Source of the DNA: Methylobacterium platani
Lineage (GTDB): Bacteria; Pseudomonadota; Alphaproteobacteria; Rhizobiales; Beijerinckiaceae
Direction of reading: 5' to 3'
Length of the DNA: 64,000 nucleotides
Assembly: GCF_001653715.1 (NCBI RefSeq)
Contig: NZ_LWHQ01000001.1
Span: 1 to 64,000 of the forward strand
Shown one piece after another: positions 55,700 to 57,240 of this stretch (position 1 is its first letter; every line of letters begins with the position of its first letter). The translations under genes were made by a program, and so were the position numbers. The notes below the pieces were generated by a model. That model was not told where the DNA came from, searched no databases, and was given only the letters and a program-made list of their open reading frames with translations.

Positions 55700-56374
55700 T
55701 CAGCCCAGCATCTCGGCGAGGCGCGCCCGGGCGCGGTTGATCCGGCTCTTCACGGTCCCGACCCGGCACTCCATCGCGACCGCGATGTCCTCGTAGGAGA
55801 GGTCGTGGACGGCCGAGAGCAGCAGCGCCTCGCGCTGGTCCGGCACCAGGCGGTCGAGGGCGGCCTGCACGTCGTGCAGGTCGAGGCTGCCCTGCTGCGC
55901 CGGCAGGGAGACGAGGCTCGCGGCGAACAGCCCGTCGGGGTCGCCGACCTCGCGCGCCCGCTTCTGGTGCTCGGAATAGAAGCTGTTGCGCAGGATCGTG
56001 TAGAGCCAGGCCGACAGGTGGGTGCCGGGCGCGAACCGGTCCTGCGCCGCCCATGCCTTGAGCAGGGTCTCCTGCACCAGATCGTCGGCGCGGGCGTGGT
56101 TGTTGCACAGGGTCAGGGCGCGGCGGCGCAGCCGCGGCACCTCGGCGAGCAGGTCGCGGCGGAACGCCTCCGCCGGCGCGACGTCGATCCCGGCGAGCGC
56201 CACGACGAGGCGGGCGACCAGCGCCTCCAACTCGCCGGAGGGCGGCAGCGCCGCCGCGTCGTAGGCGGCGCGCAGGGTCGTGCCGAGATGGGCCTGGATG
56301 CCGGCCGGCAGGGCGGGGGCCTCGGGGCGGTCCGTATCGGTCCCTGCCGGGCCCCTGGTGATCAGCGACGGCAT
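55700..56374 (-). CDS. EcfG-type sigma factor with N-terminal NepR-like domain (putative fusion)
   Basis: A 224-aa protein. Residues 75-224 are a complete EcfG (ECF15) sigma factor: FRRDLLAEVPRLRRRALTLC, HARADDLVQETLLKAWAAQD (region 2), LSAWLYTILRNSFYSEHQKR, AREVGDPDG, and region 4 LDRLVPDQREALLLSAVHDL, then CRVGTVKSRINRARARLAEM. Residues 25-60 (IQAHLGTTLRAAYDAAALPP SGELEALVARL) resemble NepR, the anti-sigma factor, whose core reads IGxxLRAxYDxxxxxPxPxxxxxLLxxL. In known genomes nepR and ecfG are separate adjacent genes; here both parts share one frame. An autoinhibited sigma factor is one reading; a sigma factor with an unrelated extension is the other. Sigma assignment is firm, NepR is moderate. 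Confidence 0.8.
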   Translation of the reverse strand: MPSLITRGPAGTDTDRPEAPALPAGIQAHLGTTLRAAYDAAALPPSGELEALVARLVVALAGIDVAPAEAFRRDLLAEVPRLRRRALTLCNNHARADDLVQETLLKAWAAQDRFAPGTHLSAWLYTILRNSFYSEHQKRAREVGDPDGLFAASLVSLPAQQGSLDLHDVQAALDRLVPDQREALLLSAVHDLSYEDIAVAMECRVGTVKSRINRARARLAEMLG

Positions 56375-56469
56375 CGCGCGGTCTCCTGTGACCGGCGCTT
56401 AAGGCACGTCGCGGCGTACCATTACAATGATCTCGACGTACTAGTCCTCCGGGCGCCGGTCCGGCGGGC

Positions 56470-57240
56470 TCAGCCCGCCGCCGCGCCGGCGGACGGGGGC
56501 GTGCCGGGCAGCCAGCGCCCGCGCATGTGCCGCTCCGCCGCCTGCCCCAGCCGTTCGGCATAGCCCGGATGCGCGGGTCCGATCAGCGGCAGGCCGAAGG
56601 CCGCGATGGTGGCCCGGATGCCGTCCTCGTCGAGGCGACGTCCCGCCGCCGCGGCGTGGCGGGCGATCTCGAGCTCCTGGCCCCAGAAGTAGATCTGCGC
56701 GGCCCCCACGTTCTCCTGCATGCGGCGCACCTCCTCGACCCGGCCGTCGGAGACGAGCGGCAGCCAGATGTCTGGCATCAGCAGGTCGACCGGCCGGTCT
56801 GGCCGCCAGGCATGGGCGTCGCCCTCGACGATGCGGATCTTCGCCCGCGCCTCGGGCGCCAGCTGGGCGGCGAGGTCGAGCTCGCGATGCAGCGCGATCA
56901 CCTCGGGGTCGCGCTCGACCACCGTCACCGCGGTGACCTCCGGCCTGACGGCGCTCGCCACCGCCGACCAGCCCATCCCGAGGCCGAACACGACGACGTG
57001 CCCGTGGGCCAGGCGCACGCCGATCTCCTGGCTCTCGAGCTCGACCGGCGTCGTCGACATCCAGGTGTCGCCGCCGCGGATCAGCGTCACGAGGTCCGGC
57101 ACCAGCAGCGCCGGGCTCCAGTAGCCCTGGCACAGCACGTTCCGCGCGTGATGCACCCGCCAGGCACCGGCGCGCAGCGGCCGGTATTCCGGCACGAACA
57201 GGTCGAACGCGAAGGGGGCCAGGCCGGGTGGAATCGTCAT
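56470..57240 (-). CDS. SAM-dependent methyltransferase-fold protein
   Basis: A 256-aa protein. A Rossmann-type methyltransferase core is visible: VVVFGLGMGWSAVASAVRPE near residue 83 (motif I), then VTAVTVVERDPEVIALHREL with the acidic residue of motif II, and RIVEGDAHAWRPDRPVDLLM. The segment order recalls the spermidine-synthase-like group. The N-terminal region, VHHARNVLCQGYWSPALLVP, is unusual. The substrate is unknown. It lies 95 bases upstream of the sigma factor on the same strand and may share its transcript. Confidence 0.65.
   Translation of the reverse strand: MTIPPGLAPFAFDLFVPEYRPLRAGAWRVHHARNVLCQGYWSPALLVPDLVTLIRGGDTWMSTTPVELESQEIGVRLAHGHVVVFGLGMGWSAVASAVRPEVTAVTVVERDPEVIALHRELDLAAQLAPEARAKIRIVEGDAHAWRPDRPVDLLMPDIWLPLVSDGRVEEVRRMQENVGAAQIYFWGQELEIARHAAAAGRRLDEDGIRATIAAFGLPLIGPAHPGYAERLGQAAERHMRGRWLPGTPPSAGAAAG

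Follow-up and report, generated by a model that had tools for sequence, protein, structure and literature searches.

The first 64,000 nucleotides of contig NZ_LWHQ01000001.1 of Methylobacterium platani (hereafter the window) carry a gene at 55700..56374 (-) which sequence comparison confirms to encode a sigma factor of the EcfG type whose translated N-terminal extension descends from the anti-sigma factor NepR. The initial annotation had proposed such a fusion as a new architecture, on the premise that NepR and EcfG are known as separate genes. The fusion proved real, but the claim to novelty did not survive, since the NepR-EcfG architecture is already known in Methylobacteriaceae: Francez-Charlot et al. 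2016 (PMC4814048) described the NepR-like extension of M. extorquens EcfG as a probable nepR-ecfG fusion, and reported it, citing an earlier note, as limited to this family. The present analysis extends the published picture by data on selection and spacing, by further fused relatives, one of them encoded on a Microvirga plasmid and others in two genera, and by loci in which nepR, a stop codon and ecfG follow each other in frame.

The C-terminal part of the window protein had been read as an EcfG-type sigma factor, and this was borne out by matches to both sigma region families above their cut-offs (Table 1) and by a search of solved structures with a profile of the fused family, in which 5uxx chain A, which we take to be a NepR-bound EcfG homologue, came out best (238 bits; next 115). 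The equivalog cut-offs of NCBIfam were not reached by the window protein (best 193 of 321). As for the N-terminus, a NepR core had been placed near residues 25–60 and a NepR profile search proposed for it. Pfam did not recover this core: residues 1–70 alone gave no match to the Pfam-A NepR family (PF18557) at E ≤ 1 and stayed below the gathering score, no other family was matched by these residues in Pfam and NCBIfam scans, and NepR was not among the six Pfam-A families matched by the whole protein. The segment was nevertheless the right one according to dedicated profiles. Against a profile built on 32 NepR cores, which stem from PF18557 loci and were regarded as stand-alone although not every gene had been checked, the extension scored 17.8 bits, whereas the best of 7100 shuffled extensions scored 7.0 and none scored as high (5381 scored). 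A second profile, made from six NepR sequences of other families only, with own-family sequences excluded, yielded 16.0 bits (best shuffle 7.8; 0/7100 as high, 4952 scored).

The same profiles separated related proteins according to labels (extended or unfused) that were assigned by the analyst after reading the rows. Among the 67 own-genus rows labelled extended, 66 scored above every shuffle with the 32-core profile (L119 was exceeded once) and 60 did so with the six-NepR profile, while the four labelled unfused yielded –4.5 to –3.8 bits or no score with the former and no score with the latter. Six rows from other families, four of which offered merely 3 to 41 residues upstream, ranged from –4.0 to –0.8 bits or had no score (32-core) and reached at most 0.8 bits (six-NepR); moreover, no NepR signal was found by profile search in two distant sigma factors of the own genome (C13 and C38). 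The extension retains the GxxLRxxYD motif and the two-helix hydrophobic skeleton of stand-alone NepR (PF18557), from which it differs in being joined covalently to a sigma factor, in having lost P[IV]PD and in lying below Pfam detection. Judged by its sequence, the extension is NepR-derived.

Translation and selection of the extension were assessed on 12 orthologous rows, two of which (L008 and L130) do not differ within the stretch displayed. All 12 have an ATG 61–70 codons upstream of the sigma core, preceded by GGAGACC in 10 (not in L128 and L129). The initial annotation would have given up the fusion if all homologues had a start codon near residue 60–70; eight of the 12 rows, however, are free of ATG, GTG and TTG from residue ~20 up to the sigma core. 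Such codons do occur in the other four, namely the window gene (TTG at –19, GTG at –10), L010, L127 and L129. Pooled ratios of nonsynonymous to synonymous substitution rates (dN/dS), which pool pairs and are to be read as a contrast between regions rather than as a tree-based test, were 1.02 for tail residues 6–21, 0.42 for NepR-like residues 22–62 and 0.25 for the sigma core. Among 52 fused proteins (i.e., 79 open reading frames merged into 64 references when sharing their last 150 residues, less 12 unfused or distant rows), L30 and L34 in helix 1 are invariant and G31 and Y38 are present in 50, whereas L52, L56 and L60 in helix 2 are present in 51, 50 and 47, respectively. The joint from L60 to F71 counts 10 residues in 50 of these 52 proteins. 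By these measures, both the start and the ribosome site of the extension are conserved, purifying selection acts on it, and its distance from the sigma core is fixed.

A survey of relatives, which had likewise been called for, showed extended rows in all 24 same-genus genomes: in each of them, the best match begins at residue 1–19 and at least one row scored above every shuffle. The subgroup of the window protein itself (83–89% identity) occurs in 4 of these 24 genomes, orthologues with 70–89% identity occur in seven named Methylobacterium genomes, and an orthologue on an M. aquaticum plasmid is 86.5% identical. The window protein is 49–53% identical to copies taken as EcfG1-like, an assignment made by the analyst without comparison to AM1 EcfG1. 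In same-order genomes of other families (six among the matches listed), matches begin at residues 62–72. Within the wider family (149 genomes, among the matches listed), extended EcfGs were found in two further genera, g48 (at least five extended loci in three of five genomes) and g52 (at least one locus in one of two genomes). Six of these loci, part of 15 fetched for a profile check, scored 13.5–33.1 bits with the 32-core profile, although one (L144) dropped to 6.8 bits, under the best shuffle, with the six-NepR profile; two own-genus loci in the same check, L152 and L153, scored 15.6 and 1.6 bits.

An extended EcfG (L160, 20.3 bits) is also encoded on plasmid pR24_1 of Microvirga terrae, with an annotated response regulator gene directly downstream. 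In similarity searches, other Microvirga plasmid matches begin at query residue 7–21 and some at 65–69. Genus g48 may be Microvirga or a neighbour. Since NCBI taxonomy places Microvirga within Methylobacteriaceae, the Microvirga fusion agrees with the published range; a narrow literature search found no report on Microvirga and NepR in the general stress response. Early-starting EcfG matches are also present on the AM1 megaplasmid and on Methylobacterium plasmids (L161, L162 and L163, with 32.5, 8.3 and 26.4 bits by NepR profile, respectively; hits H51 and H53–H60), some of which, from Methylobacterium sp. NMS14P and M. radiotolerans, measure ~45–67 kb. Seemingly fused copies in Roseicitreum antarcticum (tblastn match from residue 11) and Azospirillum were false leads: their upstream stretches scored –4.1 and –1.4 bits and thus lack a NepR signal, so that an early-starting tblastn match is no proof of an extension.

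The 7.02-Mb own genome contains six extended EcfG copies, the paralogues of the window protein being located on C90, C15 and C26 and, with weak scores, on C37 (10.7 bits) and C51 (8.6 bits). The C90 copy, which shares 57% identity with residues 14–224 of the window protein, exceeds the PF18557 cut-off (41.7 vs. 25.7 bits), as do several extended copies from other genomes. The C26 copy lies slightly below it (24.7 bits), whereas the remaining four of the own genome gave no PF18557 match at E ≤ 0.001. A separate phyR-nepR pair, about which the initial annotation had asked, is present on C47, where ~320 bases separate the best PhyR_sigma2 match from the best NepR match on the other strand; the window protein itself has no match on this contig. 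In addition, C51 has an unfused nepR-ecfG pair whose stop and start overlap, and the arrangement as a whole resembles what has been reported for M. extorquens. The sigma factor of the unfused pair (C51:16322) follows the separate nepR without a NepR-like extension and is 51% identical to the window protein over residues 71–224, the sigma core being alike in the canonical unfused EcfGs (i.e., this copy and 5uxx chain A). On the same 28-kb contig (L002, L068), the weakly extended and divergent EcfG (8.6 bits) lies ~9 kb on from this unfused operon.

The closest described counterparts are EcfG1–EcfG6 of Methylorubrum (Methylobacterium) extorquens AM1 (ECF15), which likewise combine an EcfG core with a ~55-aa NepR-like extension, occur as several paralogues without an ecfG at the phyR locus and lack a GAAC-N16/17-[CG]GTT promoter upstream; in the present set, the upstream stretches of the 12 orthologous rows likewise showed no promoter of this EcfG type. 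The NepR loop of the window protein is, however, shorter and more divergent. Fusions between anti-sigma and ECF sigma factors are also known, namely IutY of Pseudomonas putida (ECF243) and certain members of ECF36, but the passages of PMC8999054 that deal with them do not describe these as NepR-related. For an N-terminal NepR-like extension of EcfG, our literature search found PMC4814048 only, and the relevant passages of PMC8999054, PMC8103513 and PMC12148442 do not mention it.

Four loci offer a view of how the fusion may have come about. In L148, L149 and L150, a stretch that appears NepR-like by eye lies in frame with ecfG with one stop in between, and in L151 two stops separate the two (L148–L151 stem from genomes G075, G127, G157 and G128). 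In L148, moreover, NepR helix 2 is separated from the sigma core, as counted by eye, by nearly the same distance as in the window protein. It is plausible that this arrangement represents the pre-fusion state. Because nepR and ecfG usually form one operon (PMC4814048), loss of a stop codon would yield a fusion, which suggests that the latter arose by loss of the in-frame nepR stop codon. In a tree of a thinned set, from which near-copies, identical cores and long-branch rows (L118, L119, L123, L144, L068/L071/L072 and the duplicates L075–L077) were omitted, a branch (88/83, not starred) sets the 31 Methylobacterium fused rows apart from all others. All 36 fused rows together need two changes, but a single clade was not rejected (approximately unbiased test, p = 0.098); a separate fusion origin in genus g52 is suggested, not established.

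On balance, we lean slightly towards a stop-loss nepR-ecfG fusion whose extension would dock in cis, on the NepR site of the sigma factor to which it is joined, both insulating and damping the latter. An ancestral nepR-ecfG operon would have lost the nepR stop, as the in-frame split relatives suggest, leaving anti-sigma and sigma factor in one chain. The two NepR helices may then bend back onto sigma regions 2 and 4 of the same molecule and cover the face that binds NepR, much as NepR packs on the sigma-like domain of PhyR in the solved complexes 3t0y and 2lfw. We propose such a cis occupancy because M. extorquens EcfG1 bound NepR in vitro only without its extension, and because truncated EcfG1 and, to a lesser degree, truncated EcfG5 were alone in binding it in two-hybrid assays (PMC4814048). 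Such a cap would compete with stand-alone NepR and with the RNA polymerase core, and would therefore insulate the paralogue from NepR and lower its activity, until opened by core polymerase or by phosphorylated PhyR binding to it. The encoded sigma factor would serve the stress response in parallel to the remaining extended paralogues and to the phyR-nepR pair that stands apart on C47.

Several observations sit uneasily with a cis-docked cap. The 32-core profile alignment of the window protein spans helix 1 and ends at column 24 of 52, so that its helix 2 remains unaligned and is matched through relatives only, and the selection on the extension is read from the pooled contrast described above. 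The one residue of the P-[IV]-P-D loop that recurs commonly among 73 fused extensions is its second P (67%, with D at 24%), and in the window protein PPSGEL takes the place of P[IV]PD; since this loop is largely lost, binding may be altered. In M. extorquens, both in vivo isoforms of EcfG1 (i.e., full length and lacking 14 residues) were pulled down with NepR, which fits poorly with full shielding, and EcfG2 seems to be constitutively active despite its extension (PMC4814048).

These points also bear on the alternatives. If the extension fully silenced the sigma factor in cis, in line with the autoinhibition envisaged by the initial annotation, and phosphorylated PhyR activated it by acting on the NepR domain, no free NepR would be needed. 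The retained NepR helix-1 residues are compatible with this, and PMC4814048 leaves PhyR control of the remaining EcfG proteins, notably EcfG2, open; the seemingly constitutive activity of EcfG2 and the lost P[IV]PD loop nevertheless speak against it, and no test of whether PhyR binds an EcfG that carries the extension appears in the relevant passages of that paper; we consider it unlikely. We are a shade more sceptical that the extension merely keeps stand-alone NepR off a paralogue that is constitutive or controlled by its abundance. Such a role would agree with the complementation of a sextuple mutant by EcfG1 carrying its extension, and with two-hybrid data in which only truncated EcfG1 and, more weakly, truncated EcfG5 bound NepR (PMC4814048); the pull-down of both EcfG1 isoforms is the poor fit already mentioned.

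That the extension survives in this subfamily as a functionless vestige of an ancient fusion would accord with a NepR score among the weaker of the relatives (17.8 vs. up to 46.7 bits) and with the missing Pfam match. This appears very unlikely, however, given a dN/dS well below that of the adjoining tail (0.42 vs. 1.02), the invariant L30 and L34 and the near-fixed joint across the 52 proteins. Least probable is a mis-called start, i.e., a protein beginning downstream of an extension that is untranslated DNA: the start-like codons of the window gene, L010, L127 and L129 would permit it, but the eight orthologous rows without such a codon and the GGAGACC ahead of the upstream ATG in 10 of the 12 rows leave it next to no room.

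The features of the gene are collected in Table 1. The conserved block upstream of it, CTAGTAC-N8-CATTGT, had a single match in the own genome at ≤1 mismatch, as compared to four for a backward-read control; it shows no sign of being a recurring motif and is not an EcfG-type promoter. Directly upstream on the same strand, an open reading frame of 256 aa at 56470-57240 (-) gave no Pfam match at E ≤ 0.001.

Table 1. Features of the extended ecfG gene and its upstream region in the window.
Feature	Position	Strand	Basis
ecfG-type sigma factor gene with NepR-derived extension, 224 aa + stop, ATG start	55700..56374	(-)	Open reading frame, domain and NepR profile matches
Variable N-terminal tail, residues 1-21	56312..56374	(-)	dN/dS 1.02 over residues 6-21
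NepR-like domain, residues 22-62	56189..56311	(-)	NepR profile 17.8 bits, dN/dS 0.42
NepR helix 1 equivalent, residues 25-40 (IQAHLGTTLRAAYDAA region)	56255..56302	(-)	Helix assigned by homology, not predicted
NepR helix 2 equivalent, residues 46-62	56189..56239	(-)	L52, L56, L60; preceding P[IV]PD loop not kept
Joint between NepR-like domain and sigma region 2, residues 61-70	56165..56194	(-)	10-residue L60-F71 spacing
Sigma region 2, residues 79-141	55952..56140	(-)	Sigma70_r2 PF04542, 59.8 bits, over cut-off
Sigma region 4, residues 168-219	55718..55873	(-)	Sigma70_r4_2 PF08281, 66 bits, over cut-off
Shine-Dalgarno-like AGGAGA ahead of ATG	56382..56387	(-)	Read in sequence
Conserved upstream block CTAGTAC-N8-CATTGT, possible promoter or operator	56424..56444	(-)	Alignment of 12 upstream stretches

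Finally, the window adds to the family a member whose NepR domain is strongly diverged yet selected, together with split relatives that illustrate a route to the fusion. A more far-reaching proposal, in which a one-chain partner switch has the NepR domain silence its own core until phosphorylated PhyR lifts it, and in which stop-loss fusions arose more than once, strikes us as distinctly doubtful; if true, free NepR would not be needed for these paralogues to respond to stress. PMC4814048 left open whether the sigma factors acquire further features through the extension, and with residues 22–62 delineated as a discrete unit with named positions, its role becomes testable.
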